64,000 bases of DNA. It comes from Actinomycetes bacterium. GTDB taxonomy: Bacteria; Actinomycetota; Acidimicrobiia; Acidimicrobiales; Microtrichaceae. Each line of letters starts with the position of its first letter. Positions within the stretch are counted from its first letter, which is position 1. The notes beneath the pieces are model-generated. The model saw only the letters and a program-made list of their open reading frames with translations, searched no databases and was not told the DNA's origin. This document shows positions 17,258 to 41,327 of this stretch, one piece after another. Position numbers and translations under genes: made by a program. The stretch lies in assembly GCA_029782335.1 (NCBI GenBank), contig JAKOVA010000261.1, positions 1-64,000 on the forward strand, in the 5' to 3' direction.

Positions 17258-17263
17258 TATGGT
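17258..17263 (+). promoter_or_regulatory. -10 element of the recCBD operon
   Basis: TATGGT lies seven bases before ATG 17271 with no Shine-Dalgarno between. An in-frame ATG at 17259 lies inside this hexamer and is unlikely to be used. I see no convincing -35 and no SOS box. Confidence 0.5.
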
Positions 17264-17270
17264 CCGTTCC

Positions 17271-23700: not shown

Positions 23701-24126
23701 GACCTCTCGGGCCATCTCACCGGTGCGATCGACCTGGTGTTGCGCCGTCGTGATCCGGATGGCACGACCCGCTTCGTCGTCTGCGACTACAAGACCAACC
23801 AACTGCCCGGCTACGGCCGTGAGCAGCTTGCGGCTGCCATGGCCGCTCACCACTACCCCCTCCAGGCGCTCCTCTATGAGGTTGCGTTGCATCGGTATCT
23901 GCGGTGGCGGCTCGTCGATTACGAACCGGCTCTCCATCTGGGCGGCGTCGCCTATCTCTTCGTCCGGGGAATGGCCGGCGAGGCGACGCCGGCCGACGGT
24001 CAAGACGTCGAGGGGGTCTTTCGTTGGATCGTCCCGAGCGAACTCGTCGTCGCGCTCAGCGACCTGCTCGACGGGCGTCATCACCGTTCCCAGGCCCCTT
24101 CGCCGCGGCGAGGTTCGCGGCCATGA
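20698..24126 (+). CDS. recB: Exodeoxyribonuclease V beta subunit (helicase-nuclease)
   Basis: The 1142-residue 3'-5' helicase and nuclease of RecBCD. Motif I is ASAGTGKTFAL near residue 22; VVTFTRAATAELRSRL follows; motif II is LIDEFQDTDPAQW; motif III VGDPKQAIYSFRGA; motif VI LRLAYVALTRAQH. The C-terminal nuclease domain is intact: AIDLVLRRRDPDGTTRFVV leads into CDYKTN around residue 1030, giving the D-x-K metal-binding core. Overlaps on both sides imply coordinated translation with recC and recD. Confidence 0.96.
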   Translation: MVGEAVLDLCAPLPGARLVVEASAGTGKTFALTSMATRLIVEDGLAPAELLVVTFTRAATAELRSRLRDRLSAALSHLSASAQPSTDDLLLQHLWLDDDAQRGLRVRRLRRALAEFDAATITTIHGFAAQVLAATGISQRGLGAIVDDLATKSKEVCADVLAAASLEVPSADALPSYTTLLGATRTVMNSPDLLVVPAAGEPGATDDELRKAELVRRSVAELRRRRLIERSVGFDDLIGLLRDALEGPRRGSFVELLRRRFRVALIDEFQDTDPAQWAVFEAVFGADPAVPMVLVGDPKQAIYSFRGANVHTYLAAIAPMPGTSQASLVVNWRSDGAMLRALDLLFRGATFGDERIRFTSVEPAPANRDATIRDTSGTPLPALVIRCALDQSIQRTSRNKVAVDDAGRAIAVDLAQQVHRLLDGATIPLRERDGETRRRVRPSDVAVLVRTRAEAEDFQQALLRQGIPAVLARGTSVLESPAAEQWRTLLVALTRPSNPRTARAFALSWFVGWNGDDLARCGDAELAELQQRLAGWAETLAADGVASFVRQVWADGRVAARVLAQPDGDRSLTDLEHVGELLQMSGGLRHPGPAALLKALEVDPLAREEGEEHVDLSARRIESDADAVQVMTIWVSKGLQFPIVCVPSLWRKPKSTSGISTDPDTGERILDVTSTKASWPDRATAKERRARAAAEALGEQLRLAYVALTRAQHQTLLWWSNGSQSEQTSLAHLLFARGDSGDIDPELWAAQKVHLPSDDSTPSWLRHALGDRSDGTIAIEFQPECVPTAGWVDPAAPPAAETLDPAVGPAALDRTARRWSFTMVARYLDVDLAMPHVGPDHHRDAGAADEVEAEVAAIDQSRSTIPGPYADLPAGTAFGTLLHTVLEHLDFTGPDLAAQAGALGRSFDRGQMVLLAGDTERFGAAVEATLRTPLGPSFGDLTLAGLSRQDRLDEMTFDFRLAGGSAAATVAEIAELVALFLPEDDPLLPWATAVAAGTWVPDLSGHLTGAIDLVLRRRDPDGTTRFVVCDYKTNQLPGYGREQLAAAMAAHHYPLQALLYEVALHRYLRWRLVDYEPALHLGGVAYLFVRGMAGEATPADGQDVEGVFRWIVPSELVVALSDLLDGRHHRSQAPSPRRGSRP

Positions 24127-25952: not shown

Positions 25953-26000
25953 GGGTCCCGGCGCGCCTCGGGTCCCGCCGAGAATGTCACACCCCTTGGT

Positions 26001-26006
26001 TACGTT
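26001..26006 (+). promoter_or_regulatory. -10 element of the SbcD-like gene
   Basis: TACGTT lies seven bases before GTG 26014. The hexamers GTCACA (25986-25991) and TGTGAC (26008-26013) form an inverted repeat around it, which could be an operator but is short. Confidence 0.5.
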
Positions 26007-26013
26007 CTGTGAC

Positions 26014-27150
26014 GTGATTCGCTTCCTGCACACCTCCGACTGGCAACTCGGCATGACCCGCCGGTTCCTCGGCCCCGAGGCACAGGCACGCTTCGGAGAC
26101 GCACGGATCGAGGCGCTGCGAACGCTGGGCCGTCTCGCACATCAGGAGGGCTGTGCGTTCGTGGTCGTCGCGGGCGACGTCTACGAGTCGAACCACGTCG
26201 AGCGGCAGGTGCTGGTCCGCTCGCTCGAGGCGATGGCGGCAACCCCTGAGGTCACCTTCTACCTGCTGCCCGGCAATCACGACCCGCTCGACGCGTCGTC
26301 GGTGTTCCGATCGCGCACCTTCGTCGAACACGTCCCGTCGAACGTCGTCGTACTCGATTCCACCACGCCCCGAAGCGTCGGTGAGGGGGTCGAGCTGATC
26401 GCCGCACCGTGGACGTCGAAGCGCCCCCTGGTCGACTTGATTGCCGCAGCGATACCGGCCGACCTTCCACCATCGGATTCGACGGTTCGGATCGTGGTCG
26501 GCCACGGAGCCGCCGACCTGCTTGCGCCGGAAACGTCTGATCCCGCAGTCATCGACATCCGCTCGCTCGAGGCCCGCATCGAAGCCGGCATGATCCACTA
26601 CGTCGCCCTCGGCGATCGCCACTCCACAACCGACGTCGGGTCGTCGGGTCGAATCTGGTACTCCGGCGCCCCCGAGCCCACAGACTTCGTCGAGACCGAC
26701 CCAGCGAACGCGCTCGTCGTCGAGATCGACGGCCCAGAGCTCAACGTGACGTCGCATCGTGTCGGCACGTGGCGCTTCCTTCGAAGCGACCACGACCTCA
26801 CGGGAGCGACCGATATCGAGTCGCTGTCGCGACGCCTCGACGCAATCGACGAGAAGCACCGGACGGTCCTCCGGCTGAGCCTGGTCGGCCAACTCGGCCT
26901 CGCCGAGTACGCGCGTCTCCAAGACGTGCTGTCCCACTACCAGGATCTCTTCGCCGCGGTTGAGGTGTGGGAGGCAACGAGCGACCTCGTCGTCCTCCCC
27001 GCCGACGCGGACTTCGCCCATCTGCCGTTGGCGGGCTTCGCTCGCGCCGCGCTCGATGACCTTCGCGGCGAGCTCGCGCAGCCAGCGTCGGCCGAGGTCG
27101 CACGAGACGCGTTGGGGCTCTTGTACCGGCTGACGGGGGCGGCGTCGTGA
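26014..27150 (+). CDS. SbcD/Mre11-like metallophosphoesterase (DNA repair exonuclease, YhaO-like)
   Basis: A 378-residue nuclease subunit. The phosphoesterase motifs are in order: I FLHTSDWQLG, II VVAGDVYES, III LLPGNHDPLD, then VVGHGAADL and LGDRHSTT. The helix after motif I (RRFLGPEAQARFGDARIEAL) resembles the YhaO branch. The C-terminal part (about 260-378) would be the ATPase-docking region. GTG 26014 was preferred to ATG 25984, because a -10 element lies seven bases upstream of the GTG and family members begin with IRFLHT(S/A)DWQLG. The next gene overlaps by GTGA. The pair follows recD directly, forming a 12.5-kb block for DNA-end processing. Confidence 0.88.
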   Translation: MIRFLHTSDWQLGMTRRFLGPEAQARFGDARIEALRTLGRLAHQEGCAFVVVAGDVYESNHVERQVLVRSLEAMAATPEVTFYLLPGNHDPLDASSVFRSRTFVEHVPSNVVVLDSTTPRSVGEGVELIAAPWTSKRPLVDLIAAAIPADLPPSDSTVRIVVGHGAADLLAPETSDPAVIDIRSLEARIEAGMIHYVALGDRHSTTDVGSSGRIWYSGAPEPTDFVETDPANALVVEIDGPELNVTSHRVGTWRFLRSDHDLTGATDIESLSRRLDAIDEKHRTVLRLSLVGQLGLAEYARLQDVLSHYQDLFAAVEVWEATSDLVVLPADADFAHLPLAGFARAALDDLRGELAQPASAEVARDALGLLYRLTGAAS

Positions 27151-29786
27151 AGCTGCATCGGATCGTGCTCCGCAACTACCGCGGCGTAGAAGCGTCAACC
27201 GTGGAGATTGCCGGGGACGGGGTCACGATCATCGAGGGTCGCAACGAGGTCGGAAAGTCGTCGCTCGCCGAAGCACTCGACCTGGTGCTCTCCGTGCCCG
27301 ACTCTTCCAAGAGTTCCCGGGTTCGTTCGGTGCAGCCGGTTCACCATGACGTCGGTCCCGAGGTCGAGGTCGACATCGAGAGCGGGCCGTACCGGTTCCG
27401 CTACCACAAGCGCTGGCTGAAGCGAGCCGCAACGCATCTCGAGGTGCTCGAGCCGCAACGCGAGCAGCTGACGGGCCGTGACGCGCACCAGCGGGTCGAG
27501 GAGATCCTCGCGGAAACCCTCGACGTCGACCTGTTCGCGACGTTGCGATTCGTGCAGGGCGACGCGGTGGTCATGCCGACGTTCGAGTTGGTGTCGCTGA
27601 GCCGGGCGCTCGACGCAGCGGCGGCCGACGACCGGGCAGGTGACCGCGAAGACGCACTGTGGGCGGCGATCTGTGCTGAGCGAGGCCGCTACTGGACGCC
27701 GACCGGCATGCCACGAGGCGACCGGGCCGACTCCGCCCGCCGCGTCGCCGAAGCGGAGACAGAGGTGGCTGAACTGCTCGAATCGATCCGCCAACTCGAC
27801 GCGGAAGTCGCTGAGGTAGCAGACCTCGACGCGCGGATCATCGCGATCCGCGCGGAGCTCGAATCACAGCGCGAACTCGCCGAGAAGCTCGGCGAGGAGG
27901 CGCGAGTCACCGAGCGCCTGCACACCGAGGTGGAACGCGTCGGCGCACTTCACGCGGCAGCGATCGCCGCCGTGGAACAGGCCACCTCCGCAGCGGAGCG
28001 TCGCCAGGAACTGCTCGACGAGGTCAGCGAGGCGCTCGATGCCGTGGAGAAGTATCGGCAGGAAGCCGAGCGGGTGGCACCGACCCGCGCCGCTGCGGAG
28101 GCGAATCTCGCCGCAGCACGGGAGGCGGCGGCGACGGCGCACGAAGCGTGGCGCCGCGCCGAGGACCGTCATGCGCTCGCGGTCTTCGACGCCGACCTCC
28201 GCCGTCGCGAGATCGAGGTCGAGCAGCTCACCGAGCGCCGCGATCGAATCGTCGACGCACGCAGCCGTCTTGCACTCGCCGAAGGGACCCTCGCGGGGAT
28301 CCACGTCGATGAGTCAGCGGTCGCCGCAATCGAGGCGGCACATATCGAACTGGTGAAGGCGGAGGCGGCGGCGAAGGCCGGCGCCCCGACGATTCGGGTC
28401 GAGGCGTTCCGCTCCCTGCCAGTGGAGATCGACGGGGTCATCGAGTCGCTCGGCCCGAACGACCACCAGGAGTACCGAGCTTCCGAGCGTTTCGAAGTTG
28501 CCGTCGAGGGACTGATGCGGCTCGAGGTCGTCCCAGGTGATGACGCTCGTGGACTCGTCGATCGGGTCCACGAGGCGCGACGAGAGCTGCAACGTCGATG
28601 CGAGGCAGTGTCGGCGGCGTCGCTCTCCGACGCGCGTGCTCTCCTGGCGCAACGCGAGCACGCGCAACGCGAGCGAGACGACTCACAGGCCGCGATCCGT
28701 CGCGACCTTCGAGATCTCAGCTTCGAGGAGCTCTCCGCGAAGGTCGATCGGCTCCATGAGCGCATCGACGAACAGCGACGAACCCGGGCGGAAACGCCAC
28801 CGCTGCCGGTCGACCTCAGCGCGGCGCAGCATCTCGTGGACGAGTCGAACCGTCATCTCGACGGCCTCGCGGAGGTGGCGGAACGTGCCGATCGCCGAGT
28901 CTCGGACGCGGAAGCAACCCAGCGAGAAGTCTCCGAAGCCGACATCACCTCGACGCTGCGACTCGAGGACGCGACCGCCGCTGCAGCCAGGCTGGAAGAC
29001 CAGCTCGAAGTGGCCCGCCAGACGTGCCCCGATTCCGAGCTGCACGAGCGGGTGCGCGACGCATCCGAGCGGGTCGCCGCAAGCGAAGCGGCGCTCGACG
29101 CCGCCCGCGGCGCGCTCGCTGCCGCAGATCCGGCCTCCCTCGAAGTTCGTCGAAACAACCTGCGCTCCACCATCGATCGAGCAGAGGAGGCACTCGCGAC
29201 AAGCACGGAACGGCGCATCAAGCTGTTGACGCACCTCGAGCTCGCCGGTGAGCAGGGCCTCGGACACCAGCTCGGCGCCGCCGAGGCAGAACTCGAACAT
29301 CGCCGCCGAGCGTACGAACAGCATGAAGCGAGGGCGAGAGCCGCCGAGCGGCTCTACGAGGTCTTCGCCGCCCGGCGCGAGGAGGCTCGGGACCGCTACT
29401 CCGCACCGTTCCGCACGAAGATCGAAGAGTTCGGACGCATCGTCTTCGGACCCGACTTCTCCGTCGAACTCGACGGGCTTCGGGTGCGAACCCGAACGCT
29501 CGACGGCGTCACACTCGATGTCGAGGAGCTTTCGGTCGGAGCGAAGGAGCAACTCGGGATTCTCGCCAGGCTCGCGTGCGCCGTGTTGGTCGCTGCAGAC
29601 GGCGGCGCGCCCGTGATTCTCGACGACGCGTTGGGCTGGACCGACCAGCGACGCCTCGAGCGGATGGGCGCAGCGATTTCGCTCGCGGCGCGCTCGTGTC
29701 AGGTGATCGTGCTGACCTGCATGCCGAGCCGGTACGCGTCGGTGGGAAACGCAACGTTGGTCACGTTGGATTCCCCGTCTCGGTGA
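27147..29786 (+). CDS. SbcC/Rad50-like AAA ATPase (YhaN-like), coiled-coil, no zinc hook
   Basis: An 879-residue SMC-like ATPase partner of the SbcD-like nuclease. Walker A is GRNEVGKSS at 31-39, with a Q-loop at RFVQGD; the ABC signature-like LSVGAKEQL lies near 795 and Walker B PVILDDAL near 821. Between them lie long heptad-rich coiled coils (about 190-310, 480-560, 590-760). No CxxC is present at the apex, so the Rad50 zinc hook is missing; isolated cysteines (for example in QTCPDSEL) do not replace it. The start is GTG 27147, overlapping the upstream stop. Its 3' end overlaps the convergent engB by 26 bp. Confidence 0.87.
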   Translation: MKLHRIVLRNYRGVEASTVEIAGDGVTIIEGRNEVGKSSLAEALDLVLSVPDSSKSSRVRSVQPVHHDVGPEVEVDIESGPYRFRYHKRWLKRAATHLEVLEPQREQLTGRDAHQRVEEILAETLDVDLFATLRFVQGDAVVMPTFELVSLSRALDAAAADDRAGDREDALWAAICAERGRYWTPTGMPRGDRADSARRVAEAETEVAELLESIRQLDAEVAEVADLDARIIAIRAELESQRELAEKLGEEARVTERLHTEVERVGALHAAAIAAVEQATSAAERRQELLDEVSEALDAVEKYRQEAERVAPTRAAAEANLAAAREAAATAHEAWRRAEDRHALAVFDADLRRREIEVEQLTERRDRIVDARSRLALAEGTLAGIHVDESAVAAIEAAHIELVKAEAAAKAGAPTIRVEAFRSLPVEIDGVIESLGPNDHQEYRASERFEVAVEGLMRLEVVPGDDARGLVDRVHEARRELQRRCEAVSAASLSDARALLAQREHAQRERDDSQAAIRRDLRDLSFEELSAKVDRLHERIDEQRRTRAETPPLPVDLSAAQHLVDESNRHLDGLAEVAERADRRVSDAEATQREVSEADITSTLRLEDATAAAARLEDQLEVARQTCPDSELHERVRDASERVAASEAALDAARGALAAADPASLEVRRNNLRSTIDRAEEALATSTERRIKLLTHLELAGEQGLGHQLGAAEAELEHRRRAYEQHEARARAAERLYEVFAARREEARDRYSAPFRTKIEEFGRIVFGPDFSVELDGLRVRTRTLDGVTLDVEELSVGAKEQLGILARLACAVLVAADGGAPVILDDALGWTDQRRLERMGAAISLAARSCQVIVLTCMPSRYASVGNATLVTLDSPSR

Positions 29787-30397: not shown

Positions 30398-31894
30398 GTG
30401 CCCATCGATCCCCGGACCCCGGTACTCGTTGGCGTTGGAACGGCGGGGAACCCCAGCGAGGATCCACTCGATACGCCCGACGCCATCGAGCTGATGGCGA
30501 TGGCGGCACATGCGGCCGGATCCGACAGCGGCGCGCCGGCGTTGCTCTCACAGACCAGGATGATCAGTGTTCCGGAGGGCACGTGGCCCTACCGTGACCC
30601 CGGTCGCCTCCTGGCGCCGCTGATCGGTGTTGACCCTGCCGAGATCCACACCGTCCTCGGCGCCGTCGGAGTGACCCAAGAGGCGGTGATCGCGCATCTC
30701 TGGGATCGCATCGGACGCGGTGAGCTCGACGTGGGGCTGATCGTGGGCGGCGAAGCACGAGCTCGCGCCGCTGCGGCGAAGTCGGCCGGAGTCGCGCTCG
30801 AGGAACGCGAGCAGCCTGAGGGTTGCGTCCCTGACGAGACCCTGTCACCGCACAGCCTCGGCATCGCGGACCTTGAGCTCGTGCGCAACATCGTCACGCC
30901 GACCGTCGCCTACGCCGTGATGGACCAGGCGCGACGCCACCTGCTCGGCAGGACTCCCGACCAACAGCGAGGACTCACCGGCACGAGATACGCAGCGATG
31001 TCGCAGGTCGCCGCGCTCCGCCGCGAATCGTGGGATCGTCGCACCTACACCCCCGCCGAGATCGTCGAGGCCGGCCCCGACAACCGGATGGTGGCGTGGC
31101 CGTACACGAAGCGGCTCTGCTCCCAGTGGAACGTCGATCAGAGCGCGGCGCTCCTGATGTGTTCGTACGCCACGGCGCTGGCCGCGGGTGTCCCCCCGGA
31201 GCGGATGGTCTTTCCCCGCTCGTCGGCGGTGTCGGACCACGCGGTACCCGTGCTGCAGCGACCGAGCATCGGCGAAAGCCCCAACGCCGACGCCGCGCTC
31301 CGAGCAGCGTTTGCGGCCGCCGGCCTCGCAGCGTCCGACGAGTGCTCGGTGGTCGACCTCTACAGCTGCTTTCCGGTCGCGCTCGACGTGCTGGCCTCGA
31401 CCCTCGGGCGTTCCGATGCTGATGGCCTGACGGTGACCGGCGGAATGTCCTTCGCCGGTGGCCCGCTCAACAACTACGTCCTCGGCGCTGTCGCAGCGCT
31501 CGCCCGGCTCCTCCGGGGCGACCCGAACGCGTTCGGGTTGAGCACCAGCGTCAGCGGGTTTCTCACCAAAGTTGGCGCGGGCATCTGGTCGGCGTCACCG
31601 CCGCCGAGCTTGGTGCGTCCGCTCGACGTCACCGAGCAGACCCGCGCCGCGACCGAAGCCGACGAACGGCCGATCGACGACGCCTATGTCGGTGACGCCG
31701 AGGTTGTCGCCTGGACGGTCGAGCATCTCGGGGGTGCGCCGCACCGGGCGGTCGTCGTACTCGACGCGCCGACCGGCGGACGAACGATGGCGTCGAGCGG
31801 CGACCCGGAGATCTGCTCGGCGATGCTCGAAGGGGAGTGGATCGGAGCCTCCGTCGGGGTTCGCTCCGACGGTAGCTTCAGGCTCGGGGGGTGA
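30398..31894 (+). CDS. Thiolase-like acetyl-CoA acetyltransferase family protein (TLP1-like)
   Basis: A 498-residue thiolase-superfamily protein. The N-terminal PRTPVLVGVGTAGNPSED and a central QSAALLMCSYATALAAG are thiolase-like. DLYSCFPVALDV and GGMSFAGGPLNNYVLGA cover the C-terminal catalytic region. A further C-terminal domain (about 410-498) matches the extra module of mycobacterial thiolase-like protein type 1. The usual nucleophile motif of degradative thiolases is not evident, so true thiolase activity is uncertain; a role in acyl-CoA or steroid metabolism is inferred from relatives. Its 3' end overlaps the convergent SWIM gene by 17 bp. Confidence 0.8.
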   Translation: MPIDPRTPVLVGVGTAGNPSEDPLDTPDAIELMAMAAHAAGSDSGAPALLSQTRMISVPEGTWPYRDPGRLLAPLIGVDPAEIHTVLGAVGVTQEAVIAHLWDRIGRGELDVGLIVGGEARARAAAAKSAGVALEEREQPEGCVPDETLSPHSLGIADLELVRNIVTPTVAYAVMDQARRHLLGRTPDQQRGLTGTRYAAMSQVAALRRESWDRRTYTPAEIVEAGPDNRMVAWPYTKRLCSQWNVDQSAALLMCSYATALAAGVPPERMVFPRSSAVSDHAVPVLQRPSIGESPNADAALRAAFAAAGLAASDECSVVDLYSCFPVALDVLASTLGRSDADGLTVTGGMSFAGGPLNNYVLGAVAALARLLRGDPNAFGLSTSVSGFLTKVGAGIWSASPPPSLVRPLDVTEQTRAATEADERPIDDAYVGDAEVVAWTVEHLGGAPHRAVVVLDAPTGGRTMASSGDPEICSAMLEGEWIGASVGVRSDGSFRLGG

Positions 31895-33140
31895 CCGGGG
31901 GAGCCGGTTCGGGCGACGTCGACGGCGGTGGATCGACGAGGTCGCAGATGTCTTCGGAGGGGGCACGCTCGACGTGGAGCTCACGGCGTTGGCCGCGTTC
32001 CCGGAGCCGATACCAGCGATGATCGGGCCCGAGGGCGAGCCAGACGTTGCCCCGCATGCGAAGGCTGTCGTAGTTCAACGACACCGATCGGCGTGAGTAG
32101 CCCAACTCGACGAGATCCTCGCGACCGGCGGCGAGCGCCGTCTGATCGGTGGACCAGGCCCCGTCGTCCTGCAGCATCGCGACGCCGGTCGCACCGGCGA
32201 TCCGCCAGGCTTCACTCCACGCCACCAACGTCTCGGGCCGCATTCCGATCCGTCGCGCGAGCTGTCGAAGCGCGGCGCCATCGAGATTCGCCGCTCGACG
32301 CGCGAGGTCGGCGTCGTGGTTGAGGCCGAGTCCGAGTGATGCGCCGTCTCGGAGCGACGCGGCAGCGCGTTCGGCTGCATCCGCGCCGAGTTGATCGAGA
32401 TCCGCCGCGCGGAACCACGCGTCGGCGGGGATCTCGAGGTCGGACGGCGGCGGCGTCGTAGCCTCGTCGCCGACCCGGCCGAGCAGCGCCGTGAGCACTG
32501 CGGGAACGGGAGGAAGCGGCGTGTCGAGCGGGGCGTCGCCCCAGCGGGACCAACCGTCGCTCGCGTCGATCCCGAGGCTCTCGGCGTCGCGGTCGCGATC
32601 TGGGGTGGCCCCACGGTGGTGTCGGATCAGCTCGAGCAGATCCGACCGTGAGATTCCTCGGAGCTCGAAGAGGACGAACGGATCGCGGTCGATCTCCGCT
32701 GCCAGCAGGTAGCAGAGGGCCGCCGCGTGCTTGCACGGCTCTGCCCAGTCGGGGCAGCTGCAGTCGGGACGTAGATCGCCCGGGCCCGGCAACAGGCGCA
32801 CGTCGAGCTCCGCGGCATCGGCGACGATGTCGGGGGGCAGCTCACCGTCGAGGAGGGCCGCAGCGTGACCGGAACGGGTGCTGATCGCTGCGGCGACCTG
32901 GTCCCACTCGCTCGGCGCCAGCGAGCGAACCGCAACGTCGGTCCGGTAGCGGTGGCCGTGGCGGCCCCGCACCACTGCCGAGGCAAAGCCCGGTTGGATG
33001 GTGATCGCGCCGACGTTGCCACCGCGTGCGTAGGTGCGGCCACGGCTGAGCCGGGTTGGGTCGAGGGCGGCGGCCTCCTCGAGCGCCTCGACCCAGGCTT
33101 TGCCCCACCACGTGGTCGCGAATGTCCCACGGCCCGCCAC
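31878..33140 (-). CDS. SWIM zinc-finger protein
   Basis: A 420-residue protein with a SWIM zinc finger at about 123-140 (CSCPDWAEPCKHAAALC, giving C-x-C...C-x-H). Before it are the typical FATTWWGKAWVEALE and SRGRTYARGGNVG stretches of SWIM proteins that accompany SNF2 helicases. The gene directly follows the SNF2 gene on the same strand with one base between them, a widespread pairing. SWIM domains bind DNA or proteins, and the pair is thought to remodel nucleoprotein or assist repair, but its role is not established. The C-terminal tail is Pro-rich. Confidence 0.88.
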   Translation of the reverse strand: MAGRGTFATTWWGKAWVEALEEAAALDPTRLSRGRTYARGGNVGAITIQPGFASAVVRGRHGHRYRTDVAVRSLAPSEWDQVAAAISTRSGHAAALLDGELPPDIVADAAELDVRLLPGPGDLRPDCSCPDWAEPCKHAAALCYLLAAEIDRDPFVLFELRGISRSDLLELIRHHRGATPDRDRDAESLGIDASDGWSRWGDAPLDTPLPPVPAVLTALLGRVGDEATTPPPSDLEIPADAWFRAADLDQLGADAAERAAASLRDGASLGLGLNHDADLARRAANLDGAALRQLARRIGMRPETLVAWSEAWRIAGATGVAMLQDDGAWSTDQTALAAGREDLVELGYSRRSVSLNYDSLRMRGNVWLALGPDHRWYRLRERGQRRELHVERAPSEDICDLVDPPPSTSPEPAPPVTPRA

Positions 33141-33141
33141 T

Positions 33142-35862
33142 TCAGGACTCCGCCAGTCGTACGAGCTCCGCGAGCTCCTCGTCGGAGAGTTCGCTGATCC
33201 ACGCTTCGCCCGCTCCCACCACCGCGTCGGCGAGCGCCGCCTTCTCGCTGAGCAACGTTGCGATGCGCTCCTCGATCGTCCCCTCGGAGATCAGGCGGTG
33301 CACCTGCACCGTGCGTGTTTGGCCGATGCGCCACGCACGGTCGGAGGCCTGTGCCTCGACAGCCGGATTCCACCAGCGGTCGTAGTGCACGACGTGGGTG
33401 GCGCGAGTGAGGTTGAGCCCGGTGCCACCCGCCTTCAGCGACACGACGAAGACCGGGAACGCCCCCGCCTGGAAGCGCTCGACGGTTCGGGTGCGAGCCG
33501 CGAGCGACTGTCCGCCGTGCAGCAGGTCGTGGCCGACACGGAGCTCATCGAGGCGGCGGCCGAGCAGTTCGGCCATCTGCACGTACTGCGTGAAGACGAG
33601 CACCGAGTCGCCGGCGTCTGCGATCGCGGTGACGAGCTCCTCGAACGCGTCGAGTTTGCCCGAACGGCGAGCCAGGGGGCCGGCCTCACCCAGATAGTGG
33701 GCAGGGTGATTGCAGACCTGTTTGAGTGCCGTGAGGAGCTTGAACACGAGGCCTCGGCGCGCGATGCCCTCGGTCGACTCGATGCGCTTGAGGCTCTCCT
33801 CGACGACGGCGCGGTACAGGCCGGCCTGCTCCGGGGTGAGGGTGACGAGCTGATCGGTCTCGATCTTGGGGGGGAGGTCGGGGGCGATGTCGGGATCGGT
33901 CTTGCGGCGTCGGAGGACGAACGGAGCCGAAAGGCGCCGGAATCGATCGATCGTGTCGCGGTCGCCCATGCGTTCGATCGGGATCGCGAAGTCGCGGCGG
34001 AATCGCTCCAAGGGGCCCAACAGCCCCGGCGTCGTCCAATCCAGCAAGGCCCACAGCTCGCTGAGGCGGTTCTCGACCGGTGTTCCCGTGAGCGCGAATC
34101 GCACGGCCGCCGGGATGGCCCGCAGCGCCCGGGAGATCGCCGCGTTCGGATTCTTCGCGTGCTGGGCCTCGTCGGCGACGACCATGCCCCAACCCACCGC
34201 AGCGAGCTGGGGGACGTCGCGCCGTACGACGCCGTAGGTCGTGACGACGACGGCTGCCCGCTCGAGGTCGGCCAGTGTGCGTTCAGCGCCGTGGTAGCGG
34301 CGGACCACGAGGCCGGGAGCGAATCGGGCGAGCTCGTGCTCCCAGTTGGTGACGACCGAGGCCGGACAGACCACCAACGTCGGGCGCTCCTCAGCCGCTT
34401 CTGCCCGGAGGAGGTGCAGAGCGATGAGCTGGATCGTCTTGCCGAGGCCCATGTCGTCAGCGAGGATCCCCCCGAGGCCGAGCTGGGCCATCTCGCTGAG
34501 CCATCCGAGCCCGCGGCGCTGATACGGGCGCAGCTCTGCGACGAGGCCTGCCGGCGGCTCGAGCGCACGAGGGGTCGTGGCCGACCGGAGGCGGGACGCG
34601 AGATCCGCGAGGGCACCTGACGCCGTGACCGGCACCAGTTCGTCTTCGATGCGGCCCGCATGGCCGAGAACGGCGGCAAGGGCGTCACCAACGGTGATCG
34701 TGTGCGCTCGCTGCAGCTTTGCGAGCACGGACGGATCGACGAGCACCCACTCGTCGCGCAGACGCACCACCGGACGTCGGGCTTCGGCGAGCGCAGCGAG
34801 CTCGTCGTCGCTCAGGGGTGTGCCGTCGAGGGTGGGTCGGTAGGTGAGCTCGCACAGCGCGGCGAGGTCGAAGCGTTGCGTGCTGCTGCGGTCGCTTGCC
34901 GGCGCCGCAACGTGTGCGCTCGCGCGAAGGGTGCGCGTCGCAGAGGCGGGGACGAGTACCTCGACACCGACGGCGGCGAGCTGCCCGGCGAGCGGGCCGA
35001 GCAAGGCAGGGGCATCGTCGTCGTCGAGATCGAGGCGCTCCGGGGTCGACTCCTCGAGCAGGCGTCCGAGAGCGGGCCAGACTCTCGACGCGCGCCGGAG
35101 GCCGAGCAACAGGTCGGCCTCGGGGTGATCACCGAAGCCCTGGAGGCGGCCACTCCACACCTCTGATGCGTCGACCACCCGGGTCGGGTCCGACGCCGAT
35201 CGCAACTGCAGTTCGACCACGACCGGCGCCTCCCCACCGGTGGGGAGACGAAGCCGCAGACCGAGCACTGATCGCTCGCGGTCATCGCCCACGATCGCTG
35301 CGAGCCCGGGTAATTCGATGGCCTCGCGGGTTGCGAAGGGCGGCCGTCCGACAACGGTGGCGGCGGCAGCTGTTCTCGGGAGGGCGTCCGCAACGCTGTC
35401 GCAGAATGCGGCGAGCACGGGGCCTGGCGCCGCGATCCGGGGCGGCAGATGCTCACCCACGACGATGCCGTACGCCTCCGGAGGCATCCACTCGCCGAGG
35501 GCCGCGCGCGCCTCGCGGTCTGTTGGGTCGAGGGGCCCCGCTCGCCACGCGTCGACCCCGGCCGCGACGCTGGGCCGGATGCGTCCGCGGGCGACGAGCC
35601 CCACGGCGAAGCGCGCCGCGGTCGCCCACGCCTGCAGCGAGCGCGACGCCTCGTCTTCTGTGCCGAGCGCCAGCAGTTCGTCGAGGACGCCTCCCACGGG
35701 GCACAACACTGCCGGGACTTCCGTCACGACGACCTCGCCGTTGCGGGGGAGCGCAAGCGTGACCGACTTCGCGAACGACTCGGGGGAGGGCCAGAGCGCG
35801 AAATTGGCGAGCCGCGGTACCTCAGCGGGAACGAAGGTGGCGTGAAGTCCGCGTTGCAGCAC
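33142..35862 (-). CDS. SNF2/Swi2 family DNA translocase (HelZ-like)
   Basis: A 906-residue superfamily-2 ATPase. The N-terminal 400 residues form the bacterial SNF2-associated domain. The motor follows: LADDMGLGKT (motif I, near residue 466), DEAQHAKNP (motif II, near 564), LTGTPVENRLSELWALLDW (motif III) and, in the second lobe, VFTQYVQM, LKAGGTGLNLTRATHVVHYDRWWNPAVE and QASDRAWRIGQT. This is the standard bacterial RapA/HepA-distant group linked to SWIM proteins. It is probably the first gene of a two-gene operon with the SWIM gene. Confidence 0.93.
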   Translation of the reverse strand: MLQRGLHATFVPAEVPRLANFALWPSPESFAKSVTLALPRNGEVVVTEVPAVLCPVGGVLDELLALGTEDEASRSLQAWATAARFAVGLVARGRIRPSVAAGVDAWRAGPLDPTDREARAALGEWMPPEAYGIVVGEHLPPRIAAPGPVLAAFCDSVADALPRTAAAATVVGRPPFATREAIELPGLAAIVGDDRERSVLGLRLRLPTGGEAPVVVELQLRSASDPTRVVDASEVWSGRLQGFGDHPEADLLLGLRRASRVWPALGRLLEESTPERLDLDDDDAPALLGPLAGQLAAVGVEVLVPASATRTLRASAHVAAPASDRSSTQRFDLAALCELTYRPTLDGTPLSDDELAALAEARRPVVRLRDEWVLVDPSVLAKLQRAHTITVGDALAAVLGHAGRIEDELVPVTASGALADLASRLRSATTPRALEPPAGLVAELRPYQRRGLGWLSEMAQLGLGGILADDMGLGKTIQLIALHLLRAEAAEERPTLVVCPASVVTNWEHELARFAPGLVVRRYHGAERTLADLERAAVVVTTYGVVRRDVPQLAAVGWGMVVADEAQHAKNPNAAISRALRAIPAAVRFALTGTPVENRLSELWALLDWTTPGLLGPLERFRRDFAIPIERMGDRDTIDRFRRLSAPFVLRRRKTDPDIAPDLPPKIETDQLVTLTPEQAGLYRAVVEESLKRIESTEGIARRGLVFKLLTALKQVCNHPAHYLGEAGPLARRSGKLDAFEELVTAIADAGDSVLVFTQYVQMAELLGRRLDELRVGHDLLHGGQSLAARTRTVERFQAGAFPVFVVSLKAGGTGLNLTRATHVVHYDRWWNPAVEAQASDRAWRIGQTRTVQVHRLISEGTIEERIATLLSEKAALADAVVGAGEAWISELSDEELAELVRLAES

Positions 35863-35883: not shown

Positions 35884-36711
35884 TCACTGACAGCGACGGC
35901 GGGCCGGCTCCTCGTGTGGTGCGCGGCCGACGGCAAGGAGTTGCTTTGCTCCGTCGGCGAGAGCGGAGACCGCCGACAGTTCCCGTTCCAGCGCCACCAA
36001 CGAGTCGAAGTCCGTTTCCGCCATGCGATTCCAGGCATCACGACCCATTGCTCCGAACCCCACGAGCAGCCCGCTGACCCGCACGTCGGTGAGCCCCGCT
36101 GCGGCGAGGTCGTCGCGCAGGGTGGCGGCATCGAGGAGGTGGTGGGTGACGGCGAGGCCGTTGCGCACCCACCGGGCACGCCGCGTGCGGGCACGCTCGG
36201 TCGCTTCGCCGAGATCACCCCGGCCGAGCAGTTCGTTGACGAGGCCGCCGAGGGAGTCACAGAGCACCACGAGGTGCCCGCCTGGCCGTACCCACCCGGC
36301 CATGCGGCGGAGTGCTGCGTGGGGATCGGGGGTGAACTGCACGGAACCCATCGCCATGACGAGCGTTGCGGTGCGCGCGGCGATCGGTGCGTCGTCGATG
36401 CCGCAGCGGTGCAGCGTGAAGCGGTCGCCGAGTTGGCGGCGTTGCGCCGCGTCGGCCATCGCGGCGGCGGGTTCGACGCCGATGACCCGGTGACCTGCGT
36501 CGATGAGCCGCGCCGCGAGTCGGGCGGTGCCGCATCCGGCGTCGACGATGTCGCCGGCCGAGTCCCCGAGGAGATCGCAGACAACCTCCCACGCCAGATC
36601 GTCATAGGCCCGCCGGTGGGGCACCTCGAACTCCAGGTCGTAGCCGTCGGCGAGCGGGTCGTAGAAGGCGGTGGCCTCGACGAGTCGTCCCTGTTCCTCG
36701 GAGGTGCTCAT
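35884..36711 (-). CDS. SAM-dependent methyltransferase, last gene of the glycosyltransferase/radical SAM operon
   Basis: A 275-residue class I methyltransferase. ATAFYDPLADGYDLEFE is the usual lead-in, motif I is VDAGCGTARLA and the acidic loop GVEPAAAM, and LVMAMGSVQFTPDPHAAL precedes the motif III region VRPGGHLVVLCDSLGG. Its ATG overlaps the stop of the radical SAM gene (ATGA), so it belongs to the four-gene operon at 35884-38910. The substrate is unknown; a sugar or lipid-linked glycan product is suggested by the glycosyltransferase genes upstream. Confidence 0.85.
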   Translation of the reverse strand: MSTSEEQGRLVEATAFYDPLADGYDLEFEVPHRRAYDDLAWEVVCDLLGDSAGDIVDAGCGTARLAARLIDAGHRVIGVEPAAAMADAAQRRQLGDRFTLHRCGIDDAPIAARTATLVMAMGSVQFTPDPHAALRRMAGWVRPGGHLVVLCDSLGGLVNELLGRGDLGEATERARTRRARWVRNGLAVTHHLLDAATLRDDLAAAGLTDVRVSGLLVGFGAMGRDAWNRMAETDFDSLVALERELSAVSALADGAKQLLAVGRAPHEEPARRRCQ

Positions 36712-37916
36712 CGCCGACCACTCCGGAAACGATCAGCGAGGGCGACACCCGTGTTTCGGACCCAGGATCGGGGTCGCCAGCGAAGGTTCAGGCTGTAGTT
36801 GCTGCCGCATCCCACGCATTCCTTGCGGAAGAACCGCTCGTGTTCGTCCCGGTACGCGGCGCTGTCGATGATCGAGCGGATGGACTGCGCCCGGACCGAC
36901 ATCGTCGGGTCGTGTCCCCAGCATCCTCCGACCTGGCCCTGGGAGTGGACCATCAGCTTGAGCTGCGACTCGGCGCACGGCACGCTCCGCTGGAGCCGGT
37001 CCTCGAAATGGTCGGCGACGTACGCGAGGTCTGCAGGCGACGGGAGACGCCGGCGATCGGCACGGGCCATGGCCTGCACCTCGGCGAGCGCAGCGCGGAG
37101 CGTCTCCGCCTCGACCGCCGTCTCGGGGGTCACCTCGGAGGTGCGGAACAGGAACGTCGAGTCGCTCGCCAGGTTGAGGTACAGCCGCACGTCGAGGTCG
37201 CGGGCGAGGCGAGCCATCTCCGGGAGCAGGTGCGCGTTCGAGCGCATCACCGTGAAGTTCATGCGCACCGCGAGGCGGTAGCGGTCTCGTTGATCGAGCA
37301 CGCCGAGGAGGTGCTGCATCGTTGTTTCAAACGCACCTTCTGACCCGCGGACGGCATCGTGGGTGGCTGCGTCTGGCCCGTCCACGGAGACGTTGAAGCT
37401 TCGGACACCCGCTGCGAGCACCCGTTCCAGGGTCGGCTGGTCGAGCCGGATCGCGTTCGTGTTGAGATGCACCTCCCGAATCCCTCGGTTGGTCGCATAG
37501 GCCATGAGGCCGATGGCGTCACGGCGAATCAGCGGCTCGCCGCCGGTGAAGTTCACCTTGAGGATCCCGGCGTCCGCGAGTTGGTCGAGGACGTCACACC
37601 ACTCCTCGGTCCGCAACTCATCTCGCGTCGTGGTCCGCCAACACGCACAACTGACGCAACGGAGGTTGCAGTTCTCGGTCAGGAACAACTCTGCGACGAG
37701 CGGGCGGACGTGCAGCCGCGGTGCGAGGTGCTCCTTGACCGCGAGCCGAGCGAAGAACGACGCCAGCTCGGCGCTTCGCTGGAGCCGGTCACGGCGCGTC
37801 CAGGTGTCGAACCCCTCGGGGGCACGCTCGGGCAGGGCGATGCGTGAACGCTCGAGCGACACCGCCACCGCCCTCGCTTGGAGGCCCGACGGTGTGGAGA
37901 GGTCCGGAGAGGTCAT
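36708..37916 (-). CDS. Radical SAM enzyme with SPASM/twitch-like C-terminus
   Basis: A 402-residue radical SAM protein. The cluster motif is CNLRCVSC (C-x3-C-x2-C), followed by NFTGGEPLIRRD and NVSVDGPDAATHDAVRG, as in the MoaA/PqqE/SPASM group. The C-terminus has extra cysteines in VPCAESQ, GGCWGHDP and ECVGCGSNY, suggesting one auxiliary iron-sulfur cluster. ATG 37916 overlaps the stop of the glycosyltransferase gene, and a GTG 15 codons further up is less likely. No precursor-peptide gene is visible beside it, so a peptide-maturase role is not supported. A sugar or lipid modification fits the operon better. Confidence 0.87.
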   Translation of the reverse strand: MTSPDLSTPSGLQARAVAVSLERSRIALPERAPEGFDTWTRRDRLQRSAELASFFARLAVKEHLAPRLHVRPLVAELFLTENCNLRCVSCACWRTTTRDELRTEEWCDVLDQLADAGILKVNFTGGEPLIRRDAIGLMAYATNRGIREVHLNTNAIRLDQPTLERVLAAGVRSFNVSVDGPDAATHDAVRGSEGAFETTMQHLLGVLDQRDRYRLAVRMNFTVMRSNAHLLPEMARLARDLDVRLYLNLASDSTFLFRTSEVTPETAVEAETLRAALAEVQAMARADRRRLPSPADLAYVADHFEDRLQRSVPCAESQLKLMVHSQGQVGGCWGHDPTMSVRAQSIRSIIDSAAYRDEHERFFRKECVGCGSNYSLNLRWRPRSWVRNTGVALADRFRSGRR

Positions 37917-38443
37917 CGGCTGCTCGCCTCCACGTGGAGTTCGTGGAGCAGGAGGCGCCACGCCCGATCGAGATCGATCTCCGGCGGCTTCGGCCGTGTC
38001 GCGAGTAACGCCGCCTCAACAGCCGGGTGCCCGGCGATCGCTGCGGCGAGGTCGTCGAGTTCTCCCCAGAGGCCGACGGCGAGGCCGCTGCGCTGCTCGT
38101 GGCGGAGGAACTGCACCTGATGGTCGTTCGCCATCTCGCCACGGCGTTGCTCCCGCGCCACGCAGATCGGCACCTTGCCGAGGCGCTGCACGAGGCGGAC
38201 CGTGTTGCCGGCGTGCGTGACGACCACGTCGGCAGCCTGCATGCGATCGCGGAGTTCGCTCGGTGAGACGAATCGGGGCGCCGGACATGCGAGCGGCACA
38301 TCGGAGGTGCCGCGTTGGACGAACAGGTCGTAGTCGTCGCCGAGCGCGCCGACCGCGCGGAGGAGACGGTCGAACGGCCAGCGGCCCATGCCGACGGTGA
38401 CGACGACCGTTCGGGGCGGGTCGTGGGGGTTCGGGGCCGTCAC
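37913..38443 (-). CDS. Alg13/PssE-like glycosyltransferase catalytic subunit
   Basis: A 176-residue protein equal to the C-terminal, nucleotide-sugar-binding half of GT28 glycosyltransferases. TVVVTVGMGRWPFDRLLRAV is the N-terminal strand and glycine turn, and MQAADVVVTHAGNTVRLVQ is the donor-binding block. The preceding gene encodes the partner half, so the two should form a bipartite enzyme like eukaryotic Alg13/Alg14 or bacterial PssE/PssD. The start is GTG 38443, overlapping the upstream stop (GTGA). Upstream in-frame sequence is antisense to the Alg14-like gene. Confidence 0.82.
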   Translation of the reverse strand: MTAPNPHDPPRTVVVTVGMGRWPFDRLLRAVGALGDDYDLFVQRGTSDVPLACPAPRFVSPSELRDRMQAADVVVTHAGNTVRLVQRLGKVPICVAREQRRGEMANDHQVQFLRHEQRSGLAVGLWGELDDLAAAIAGHPAVEAALLATRPKPPEIDLDRAWRLLLHELHVEASSR

Positions 38444-38910
38444 ATCAACTCCCCGACGAGGACGCTTCGGAGGTGGACGCCGAGGCGGGCCGGATGCTGC
38501 ACCGCCACGAGGGTGGCGATTCGTGCGCAGACCCGTGCCGCGAGGCCTTGTCGATCGATGATGTTGAAGGTCTCGACCCACACGCGCGGCACGCGGAGTA
38601 CCGCAGCGGCGACAAACCATGGAACCGCGAGCGCGGTGCCCGCAGAGAGGACGAGACCGGGTCGGCGTCGTCGCATCGACCGCCACGCCACGACGCTTTC
38701 GGCAAGGAGGCCGAGGGGCCGGCGGAGCGACGGCTCACGGCGGAACTCGACGTGCTCGGCGGCGAGCTCCTCGCGGGTGTCGACGGCATCGACGGCGACG
38801 AACGAACACGAGCCGGGGTAGGAGCGACCGAGTGCGAGCGCGTCGAGCAGCACTCCTCCGGCGCTGCTCACCACCAGAAGGTCGCCGAGCTGCGCTGATC
38901 CCGTCGTCAT
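38440..38910 (-). CDS. Alg14/PssD-like glycosyltransferase membrane subunit
   Basis: A 156-residue protein with the Alg14 layout. LLVVSSAGGVLLDALAL is the N-terminal Rossmann strand with the SSAGG turn, GLVLSAGTALAVPWFVAAAV a hydrophobic membrane-associating segment, and VWVETFNIIDRQGLAARVC the conserved ETF block. It would anchor the Alg13-like protein encoded next and bind the lipid-linked acceptor. First gene of a four-gene operon whose members all overlap by four bases. Start ATG 38910; a weak GGAGG lies upstream at a long spacing. Confidence 0.82.
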   Translation of the reverse strand: MTTGSAQLGDLLVVSSAGGVLLDALALGRSYPGSCSFVAVDAVDTREELAAEHVEFRREPSLRRPLGLLAESVVAWRSMRRRRPGLVLSAGTALAVPWFVAAAVLRVPRVWVETFNIIDRQGLAARVCARIATLVAVQHPARLGVHLRSVLVGELM

Positions 38911-38992
38911 GTCGAGCGTGTTGCCTCCCGCTCCGCTGTCATCGGGCAGTTCCGCCGGCCCGGCCCGTCGAGGAGTTGTAGCAGACGCGCCG

Positions 38993-39054
38993 GAAGGGGT
39001 CCCCTTCGAGCCGTGGCCCTATGCTCGCCGCCGGGCGGGGCGTACGGCTGGAGG
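38993..39054 (+). promoter_or_regulatory. Promoter, palindromic operator and RBS of the DegT-type gene
   Basis: GAAGGGG-T-CCCCTTC (38993-39007) is a perfect palindrome. It sits where the -35 should be for a TATGCT -10 at 39020-39025. A GGAGG Shine-Dalgarno (39050-39054) precedes ATG 39064 by nine bases. Unlike many genes here, this one therefore appears to have a proper leader. The same 153-bp gap separates it from the divergent glycosyltransferase operon. Confidence 0.6.
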
Positions 39055-39063
39055 ATGAAAGTT

Positions 39064-40182
39064 ATGGGGAACGCCGCGGACGGCATTCCGTTGGTCACAC
39101 CCGCGGGCGTCGGCTCGCGTGGCGCGGAGCTCGACGCGCTCCTCGCCGAGATCGGCGAGATCATCGTCTCGGGTCGCTATCGGGTCGCCGACGGGTACGC
39201 CGAGCGAGCCGGGGCGCTGCTTGCCGAGGAGTACCGCCTGCCCGACGACTGGCGTGTCCTCACGTTCCGCTCCGGAACCGACGCACTCGCCCGCTCACTC
39301 GCCGGATGGGGCATCGGCGCCGGCGCGCGGGTCGGTGTGCCGGATCTCGCGTACCACGCGGTCGCCGGGGTCGTGATGATGGCCGGTGCCATACCCGTCG
39401 CGCTCGATGTCCGCGCCGATGACTGGAACCTCGACGTCGAGGCGGTGGCTCGCGTCGTCGACTCCCTCGACGCCGTGATCGCCGTCGACAACTACGGCAC
39501 GCCCTGCGACCGGGCGGCGCTCGGGGCAGTCGGTCGTGCGGCAGGGATTCCGGTGGTCCTCGACGCCTGCGAGAGTCTCGGGTCGGCTCACCCCGAACAC
39601 GGCCTCGCCGCAGCCGTGGACGCCATCGCCGTGAGCTTCAGCTTCACCAAGCCGATCCACGCCGCCGGCGCAGGGGGAGCGCTCGCGGTTCCCGGTGAGG
39701 TCGCGGACCGGATCCTCGCCACCGACGCGCTGTTGAGCCGCCAGGTTCAGCTTCCGGAACTGAACGCCGCGGCGCTCGTTCGCTCCTGGCCCGAACTGCG
39801 CACCAACGTGGCGCGTCTACGCGGGCAGTACGACGCGTACCGCTCCGTGCTCGAGCCGATGGGCTTGCAGCCACAGGTCGAACACGCTCGAGGGACGCGC
39901 CTGCATGCGCCGTTCCTGCTTCCGGTCGACACGACCGCCGAGGCGCGCGACGAGCTGATCGAACAACTGGGCGCCGCGGGAATCGAGGCGCGGGCGATGT
40001 TCCCCTCACAGTCACGTCTGTTGGGTCTGGGCGCGCCGCCGCCGGTCGCCGCGTCGGTCGATCGGCGGGTGGTGTGCCTGCCGACCGGCTCGGGGGTGCT
40101 CGCCGCGAACCTTGCCGAGCGCGTGGCTGGCGTCGTCGGGCAGTGGCGTTCCGAGCAGGCTCCGGAGTCGCTCAGCGCCTGA
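39064..40182 (+). CDS. DegT/DnrJ/EryC1-like PLP-dependent sugar aminotransferase
   Basis: A 372-residue fold-type I PLP enzyme. FRSGTDALARSLAGWGI is the cofactor phosphate loop, VIAVDNYGTPCD and VVLDACESLGS carry the PLP-ring Asp, and the Schiff-base Lys is in SFSFTKPIHAAGAGG. These match sugar aminotransferases making 3- or 4-amino sugars, although the group also includes dehydratases. ATG 39064 was chosen over the in-frame ATG at 39055 for its spacing from GGAGG. It is divergent from the glycosyltransferase operon, so it may supply an amino-sugar donor to it. Confidence 0.82.
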   Translation: MGNAADGIPLVTPAGVGSRGAELDALLAEIGEIIVSGRYRVADGYAERAGALLAEEYRLPDDWRVLTFRSGTDALARSLAGWGIGAGARVGVPDLAYHAVAGVVMMAGAIPVALDVRADDWNLDVEAVARVVDSLDAVIAVDNYGTPCDRAALGAVGRAAGIPVVLDACESLGSAHPEHGLAAAVDAIAVSFSFTKPIHAAGAGGALAVPGEVADRILATDALLSRQVQLPELNAAALVRSWPELRTNVARLRGQYDAYRSVLEPMGLQPQVEHARGTRLHAPFLLPVDTTAEARDELIEQLGAAGIEARAMFPSQSRLLGLGAPPPVAASVDRRVVCLPTGSGVLAANLAERVAGVVGQWRSEQAPESLSA

Positions 40183-40193
40183 CGTCGCGAGGT

Positions 40194-41204
40194 TCAGTCC
40201 GCGTGGGCGCTCACCCAGGCGTCAACCTCGGCCCAGCGGTCATACAGCCACTCGAGCAACTCCTCACGCGGCTCGGGGATCTGCTCGCTCGGGATCCTCC
40301 ACATCTCGAAGCGGACCGCATGACGGAACGGGGCGACTCGCCACAAGTCCAATGGACCGGCGAGGCCTTCGAGGCCGGTGTGGGCGATCACCACGACATC
40401 CGCGCCCTTCGGACGGCGGGAGAGGGCTTCGAGCGGGCCACCCGTTCGCGGTGGCATCGTGGCGGTCAGCTTGCGTGCGCGTTCTGCCGCCGCCGGGTTC
40501 GAGACGCTCAGCTTCTCGATCGCTCGATCCCGTTTCTCCTCAGTGAATCGTGAACCCTCGGGGAAGATGATGAACGCCTCGGTGTCCCGCGTGCCGGCGG
40601 CGAGATCCCCGACTGCTGCCACGGCCGCCTCGGAGTTGCCCCCGGAGCGGTCGACGAAGTGGTTCGGGAAGCGGTGGCCCATCAGGTCGAGGGCCGGATC
40701 CCACAGGAGTTCGTCCTTGAGGACGTAGCGGCATCCGAGGCCGACGTCGTCGGCCAACTGGATCGGGATCAGCGTGTCGACCATCGACGCGTGCCGTGAC
40801 AAGACGATGACGGGCCCCGGGCCGAGAAGCTCCGCGCCGGTCACTTCGAGACGCATGTTGAGGAAGCGACGAAGGTTCCGGATGTTGCTCCGCGCCCAGT
40901 GGACCTGCACCTTGCGGTGCGCCTCCTGGAAGGCGCGGGTTCGGAGCAACAGTCCGAAACCACTCGCCACCCACAAGGCGGCCGACACCATGATCGCGAC
41001 GACTTCCCAGCCCAGGTATGTGAGCCCGAAGCCCAGCACCCGGAGCGTAGGAAGGCGCGGCCGGCCCCTGAGCAGATCGAACACGAGCGCAGCGGGCAGC
41101 ACCAGGAGCGAGGCCGGATACAGGACGAGTGCAGCGAGCAGGACGGCGGGAACGGTGACGGCCCGGCGCCCGAGGCGTGACTCGCGCAGCGAACTGGCGG
41201 ACAT
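40194..41204 (-). CDS. 1-acyl-glycerol-3-phosphate acyltransferase family (PlsC-like)
   Basis: A 336-residue membrane acyltransferase. Hydrophobic segments near residues 14-42 and 55-82 precede the catalytic block: SRHASMVD is the HxxxxD motif, VDRSGG follows, and FPEGSRFT is the FPEGxR-type acceptor motif. VVVIAHTGLEGL is a later conserved strand. At over 300 residues it is longer than classical PlsC, closer to the lysocardiolipin-type branch. Start ATG 41204 is favoured, but ATG 41213 is also possible. The acyl acceptor is not evident. Confidence 0.85.
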   Translation of the reverse strand: MSASSLRESRLGRRAVTVPAVLLAALVLYPASLLVLPAALVFDLLRGRPRLPTLRVLGFGLTYLGWEVVAIMVSAALWVASGFGLLLRTRAFQEAHRKVQVHWARSNIRNLRRFLNMRLEVTGAELLGPGPVIVLSRHASMVDTLIPIQLADDVGLGCRYVLKDELLWDPALDLMGHRFPNHFVDRSGGNSEAAVAAVGDLAAGTRDTEAFIIFPEGSRFTEEKRDRAIEKLSVSNPAAAERARKLTATMPPRTGGPLEALSRRPKGADVVVIAHTGLEGLAGPLDLWRVAPFRHAVRFEMWRIPSEQIPEPREELLEWLYDRWAEVDAWVSAHAD

Positions 41205-41327
41205 CGGCCGCATTCTTGCAGTCCCGGGCATCAACAGACACCACGCGCCGTATCCCTGCCACGAGCGGGCCGCCCGAGGGGTTGGGCGACGATGGCCGCC
41301 CAACCCCTCGGCTCGGGGGCTGCAAGC

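Follow-up and report, generated by a model that had tools for sequence, protein, structure and literature searches.

What might a split glycosyltransferase, a radical S-adenosyl-L-methionine (SAM) enzyme, a methyltransferase and a DegT-type aminotransferase make when their genes lie side by side, and onto which acceptor would the product be built? The question is raised by a locus from an actinobacterium of the family Microtrichaceae (GenBank assembly GCA_029782335.1), found in positions 1 to 64,000 of contig JAKOVA010000261.1; this whole stretch of 64,000 nucleotides is called the window in what follows. An earlier interpretation made from the letters alone (the sequence-only reading) had proposed that these genes produce a radical-modified, methylated amino sugar and transfer it to a lipid or polysaccharide, and as a whole it is partly supported.

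The five genes form a real module, one functional set: those for the Alg14-like and Alg13-like proteins, the radical SAM enzyme, the methyltransferase and the DegT enzyme lie within about 11 kb in all 13 loci studied, namely the window and 12 other genomes, and this co-location excludes a chance neighbourhood. Regarding its role, the preferred reading is that of a self-contained, horizontally scattered module for tailoring glycosides, in which an altered Alg14/Alg13 pair, together with the radical SAM, DegT and methyltransferase enzymes, would lead to a methylated amino-sugar glycoside; we give this reading an even chance of being right. Every gene belongs to a known superfamily, but no description was found of their combination, of this radical SAM family or of the glycosyltransferase clade with GGV in its loop I. 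Indeed, the sequence-only reading knew of no named pathway with this exact set, and neither NCBIfam nor the open-access literature yielded a pathway or a paper containing it.

The features of the locus, with the basis of each assignment, are as follows.

38440 to 38910, minus strand: Alg14/PssD-like acceptor half of a split GT-B glycosyltransferase, with loop I GGVLLD and not GGH (NCBIfam PssD, alignment)
37913 to 38443, minus strand: Alg13/PssE-like donor half, with the motif HAG-NTVR...NDHQ and a GTG start (NCBIfam PssE, alignment)
36708 to 37916, minus strand: orphan radical SAM enzyme, with CNLRCxSCxCW and four invariant C-terminal cysteines (PF04055, alignment, AlphaFold2)
35884 to 36711, minus strand: class I SAM-dependent methyltransferase, termed MT-B (PF08241, alignment, AlphaFold2)
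39064 to 40182, plus strand: divergent DegT/DnrJ/EryC1/StrS-type aminotransferase dependent on pyridoxal phosphate (PLP), with an invariant catalytic lysine in SFxK (PF01041, alignment)
38911 to 39063, no strand: divergent intergenic region with a 7-1-7 palindrome (sequence inspection)

The open reading frames, strands and overlaps are those that had been claimed: four overlapping genes occupy 35884-38910 on the minus strand, in the order Alg14-like, Alg13-like, radical SAM and methyltransferase, and the DegT gene (39064-40182, plus strand) diverges from this operon. On the coding strand, the Alg14/Alg13 junction reads ...TTGATGTGACGG, with a GTGA overlap, while the Alg13/radical SAM and radical SAM/methyltransferase junctions read ...CCGATGACC and ...GCGATGAGC, both with ATGA overlaps. 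All the reading frames of the module are intact in the window. The radical SAM protein likely starts at the ATG at 37916 rather than at the GTG at 37961, and DegT likely starts at the ATG at 39064, since GGAGG directly adjoins the other ATG, at 39055.

Distribution and fuller form of the module

Eleven further loci came from scanning about 85,000 species genomes, and searching the order to which the window belongs added one more; the genes are therefore found together, not scattered, in relatives. The hosts are a metagenome-assembled genome (MAG) of Microthrixaceae, another member of the same order, Amorphoplanes (two), Micromonospora (three), Actinoallomurus (two), Kribbella, Nocardioides and a Solirubrobacterales MAG; these distantly related actinobacteria span three groups. 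The window shares its flanks with its nearest relative, locus L002, only; elsewhere the flanks are unrelated. DegT may diverge from the other genes, converge on them, run in their direction or lie a few kb off, and in Kribbella and Nocardioides the operon is divided into two. The pairwise distance matrices of the five module proteins correlate at 0.83-0.95, and the main groups are the same in their unrooted trees. The module is nevertheless rare, occurring in 2 of 198 genomes of the order, 2 of 395 of the class and 1 of 397 of the phylum, each count including the window's own genome as one. A set so cohesive and yet so patchy suggests that it spread horizontally or was lost repeatedly. A mosaic origin of DegT, whose branch is unusually long in the unrooted tree (1.5), was considered and rejected, as all five unrooted trees group the window with L002 and locus L014 (support 0.55 to 1.0). 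No module orthologues were found on plasmids or in viruses, and what matched more weakly on plasmids was for the most part PqqE and pseudo-SAM proteins.

In its usual form the module has more parts, a trait that is not visible from the window sequence. A second, unrelated methyltransferase (MT-A) follows Alg13 or is fused to it in 11 of the 12 relatives, the fusion occurring at four loci (L008, L010, L011 and L014), and ten relatives carry an N-terminal short-chain dehydrogenase/reductase (SDR) domain, of the NAD-dependent epimerase/dehydratase kind, fused to DegT; locus L003 ends before this region. Both MT-A and the SDR domain are absent from the window and from L002. A search for both elsewhere in the genome of the window host, which is about 75% complete, returned generic homologues only, and the idea that they are encoded there was rejected on this ground.

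As for the SDR half of the L014 fusion (L014:13020-15110), it is only distantly related to those of the other loci, which suggests that this fusion arose separately or that the sugar-making part changes very quickly. Beside the Alg13-MT-A gene, Kribbella and Nocardioides have a further SDR resembling UDP-xylose synthase (UXS), matched by the dTDP-glucose dehydratase and UDP-xylose synthase models; these proteins (L010:13652-14611 and L011:14565-15596) have the look of UDP-glucuronate decarboxylases (STSEVYGDP...YWGN) and are 64% identical to each other. Two loci carry additional genes. The Solirubrobacterales MAG has a second, very different DegT gene (L008:10179-11429; 348 bits, PF01041) about 4-6 kb from that of the module, and genes resembling arylmalonate decarboxylase, a sulfotransferase and the F420-hydrogenase beta subunit lie beside the module at L014 alone (L014:6330-9192, genome G027).

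Enzymes of the module and their nearest relatives

The split glycosyltransferase of GT28 type that had been proposed is borne out: two adjacent subunits, acceptor half followed by donor half, are encoded in one operon, and by NCBIfam they are PssD/PssE-like. The best model is PssD for the Alg14-like protein (39.8 bits, under the cut-off of 110) and PssE for the Alg13-like protein (50.7 bits, under the cut-off of 120); the Pfam families Glyco_tran_28_C and Alg14 match the window proteins weakly and their orthologues better. When the 13 module Alg14 proteins were aligned with 16 PssD proteins of other Actinobacteria, collected with the NCBIfam model, loop I was GGV in 13/13 of the former versus GGH in 16/16 of the latter. 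An invariant aspartate follows, in the form GGVLLD, or GGVLPD in L014. In the tree, the module Alg14 proteins constitute one clade (support 1.000, branch 0.75) nested among the actinobacterial PssD. The donor loop of Alg13, HAG-NTVR in 13/13, is one residue shorter than the HxGxGx of most PssE, and the DHQ part is kept.

The GGH histidine occurs in MurG, Alg14 and Agl24, and its replacement by alanine abolishes the activity of MurG and Agl24; this loop is the proposed binding site for the diphosphate of the lipid acceptor, and the archaeal pseudomurein homologues that have no such histidine are believed to act on a different acceptor (PMC8993221). From the change of GGH into GGV in all the module proteins, we infer that the pair may use another acceptor or another mode of catalysis. 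The altered loop weakens the idea that the acceptor is a lipid or polysaccharide, and a soluble one, or a change in catalysis, is favoured instead; although indirect, this is the strongest argument against that idea.

The end point proposed by the sequence-only reading must be weighed here: the PssD/PssE-like pair would use an undecaprenyl-diphosphate sugar like its relatives, bringing the radical-modified, methylated amino sugar into a lipid-linked precursor or a surface polysaccharide. Its nearest characterised relatives, PssD/PssE and Cps14F/Cps14G, do serve exopolysaccharide or capsule assembly according to their NCBIfam names, and a glutamate of the acceptor region is retained in 12 of the 13 module Alg14 proteins. 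However, the histidine essential in MurG and Agl24 (PMC8993221) is lost from every one of them, and around the module loci there is no conserved gene for a lipid-sugar primer or priming transferase, a flippase, a polymerase or any further polysaccharide function. On balance this transfer, the part of the sequence-only reading that finds no support, is unlikely. Compared with PssD/PssE, Cps14F/Cps14G, EpsE/EpsF and Alg14/Alg13, the module shares the two short adjacent genes, acceptor then donor, and the HxG...DHQ signature; it differs in GGV, in the shorter donor loop, in scores below the cut-offs and in having no polysaccharide context.

The DegT-type enzyme and the methyltransferase are of the kinds previously proposed. 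DegT scores 127.4 bits with PF01041 (cut-off 19.8), and D170 and K199 are invariant in 12 sequences; with its PLP lysine kept, it is an aminotransferase and not a dehydratase of the histidine type. MT-B scores 55 bits with PF08241 and, by its Methyltransf_11/25 domain and its fold, is a class I SAM methyltransferase. Its AlphaFold2 model has a mean per-residue confidence (pLDDT) of 93.4, with 2avn (TM1389), CmoM, RebM and AtmM as nearest folds; sugar N-methyltransferases also match it by profile. The modelled fold does not reveal which atom would be methylated.

The radical SAM protein belongs to its superfamily by PF04055 (77.7 bits, cut-off 29.5) and by its CX3CX2C motif. The extra cysteines noted earlier are confirmed, as eight are invariant in 13 sequences: C83, C87 and C90 of the motif, C92 immediately behind it, and C314, C332, C367 and C370 at the C-terminus. 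These last four are the probable ligands of one auxiliary Fe-S cluster; the region has no SPASM match in Pfam and matches none of the solved chains by sequence. In NCBIfam, 61 models match the protein, and the best reaches 106.5 bits versus a cut-off of 500. Because no model comes near its cut-off, the protein is placed in an orphan family and not with a named peptide maturase, and the grouping with a peptide-modifying family that would have spoken against the sequence-only reading did not appear. AhbD, TIGR04053, PqqE and SkfB (SPASM/twitch) are alike in having a radical SAM core and a C-terminal region with cysteines; they differ in that they match mostly over the core.

The AlphaFold2 model of this enzyme (pLDDT 80.3, predicted TM-score 0.83) has BlsE (7vob) as best fold match in the Protein Data Bank (E 1.5e-14, TM-score 0.71 by target length, 24% identity), followed by SkfB, PqqE, SuiB and DesII; by sequence profile the nearest solved chains are SkfB and BlsE, with SkfB scoring above BlsE. 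TIGR04466, the model of the BlsE family, gives 68.8 bits, below its cut-off of 400. The cytosylglucuronate decarboxylases BlsE, MilG and ArgF offer the nearest solved fold, over most of the length of the enzyme, and are likewise radical SAM enzymes found beside a glycosyltransferase, acting there on a glycoside; the low identity, the low score and the different families of the partner genes set the module enzyme apart. The invariant C92 and the four C-terminal cysteines of the window protein may be further differences.

These likenesses raise a more specific version of the glycoside reading, of the blasticidin type. Here the glycosyltransferase would place glucuronic acid, or a sugar related to it, on an acceptor that is base-like or small; the sugar so attached would be decarboxylated or dehydrated by the radical SAM enzyme, the ketone that results aminated by DegT, and the product completed by the methyltransferases. 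Related PssDE transferases use UDP-glucuronic acid, and the UXS-like SDRs beside the module in L010 and L011 would also use UDP-glucuronate. BlsE is the best whole-length fold match, and in the blasticidin pathway BlsD makes cytosylglucuronic acid, which BlsE decarboxylates (PMC3715490). This specific course is nevertheless quite improbable, given the modest identity to BlsE, the better profile score of SkfB and the C-terminal cysteines mentioned above; moreover, the UXS-like genes stand at only 2 of the 13 loci, and no base-making genes were seen.

In the desosamine pathway, DesI (DegT aminotransferase), DesII (radical SAM deaminase) and an N-methyltransferase provide the same trio of amination, radical step and methylation. 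The likeness is in the reactions: DesII matches the radical SAM protein only weakly (23 bits by profile, TM-score below 0.5), and the window DegT reaches 55.6 bits with the DesI model, whose cut-off is 650.

The proposed pathway

According to the preferred reading, a glycoside-tailoring module, DegT would aminate a keto-sugar, made or processed in the relatives by the fused SDR and possibly supplied in the window host by a general NDP-glucose 4,6-dehydratase; a dTDP-glucose 4,6-dehydratase scoring above its cut-off is indeed present in that genome and could provide it. The Alg14/Alg13 pair would move a sugar to a small or unusual acceptor instead of a polyprenyl-diphosphate sugar. The radical SAM enzyme would perform a one-electron change on the sugar or the glycoside (an oxidation, dehydration, decarboxylation or epimerisation), with its auxiliary cluster taking up or holding an electron, and amino or hydroxyl groups would be capped by the methyltransferase, one in the window and two in most relatives. 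The outline implies no order of the steps; it would yield a small metabolite, either a methylated amino-sugar glycoside or a nucleoside-like compound. Two kinds of fusion, Alg13 with MT-A (at the four loci given above) and SDR with DegT, join parts of this scheme and support it, as do the sugar methyltransferases among the structures nearest to MT-B.

Several points weigh against this reading. The loci have in common no gene for a transporter, a regulator or the making of an acceptor. The missing histidine could instead reflect a lipid acceptor served by a changed catalysis, or a new function taken on by the invariant aspartate of GGVLLD. The likeness to BlsE is at the level of the superfamily only, by its identity and its TIGR04466 score. 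Finally, because the window has neither MT-A nor the SDR domain, its form of the module may yield a less elaborate product or be in decay, although all its frames are intact.

A bolder extension of the glycoside reading is that of an undescribed class of small-molecule pathway, with a re-purposed Alg14/Alg13 pair (histidine to valine, with a new invariant aspartate three residues further on), a non-lipid acceptor, a new twitch-type radical SAM family and a product of unknown structural class; this we hold as a tentative possibility, on the doubtful side.

Two other alternatives start from genes near the module or from the radical SAM fold. One is that the module decorates a small cofactor already known, such as mycofactocin, or the glycan of that cofactor. 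It is suggested by a gene for the mycofactocin glycosyltransferase MftF at L004:2516-3901 (433.8 bits, cut-off 280) and its homologue at L005:2592-3983, both about 2-3 kb from the module in Actinoallomurus, but these are two sister loci, nothing similar lies within 8 kb of the module elsewhere, and the idea is very unlikely. A pathway for ribosomally synthesized and post-translationally modified peptides, in which the radical SAM enzyme matures a short precursor peptide that is also glycosylated and methylated, is scarcely credible: although the closest structures include SkfB, SuiB and PqqE and many NCBIfam matches are peptide maturases, all the maturase models score far below their cut-offs, no short peptide frame is conserved across the loci (chance or antisense matches only), and a DegT/SDR and glycosyltransferase set has no role in most such systems.

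Surroundings in the window and significance

The palindromic promoter attributed to DegT stands only in part. A perfect palindrome, GAAGGGG-T-CCCCTTC, is present at 38993-39007 upstream of the gene; however, no sigma-70 consensus was found in the intergenic region, the palindrome is not kept in L002, where only a -10-like stretch, CCCTATGMT, is shared, and it was rejected as a meaningful feature because it is not conserved.

The GC content of the cluster is 0.70, against 0.69 for the window, and the genes around it look, by eye, like ordinary chromosome. An LPAAT acyltransferase (40194-41303) and an SNF2 helicase flank the module; they are common only to the window and its nearest relative, and are not parts of the module. 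The helicase (NCBIfam SCO1167/SCO6262 family, 1106.5 bits, cut-off 1200) is followed by a SWIM zinc-finger protein (31878-35862, minus strand), and this pair adjoins the module in L002 too, with 63-64% identity. Further away, at 17259-29786 on the plus strand, a RecC/RecB/RecD-like run and an SbcD/SbcC-like pair appear, by eye only, to be ordinary repair genes.

As for the meaning of these results, the GGH histidine is regarded as a hallmark of MurG, Alg14 and Agl24, and a clade wholly without it is a natural test of the role of this residue and of how a lipid-glycosylating enzyme can switch acceptor. The module is also a gene set that is compact and movable, and its orphan radical SAM family has no name in the models used for genome mining; the presence of the module in named strains of Micromonospora, Actinoplanes (Amorphoplanes), Kribbella and Actinoallomurus makes the discovery of its product practical.

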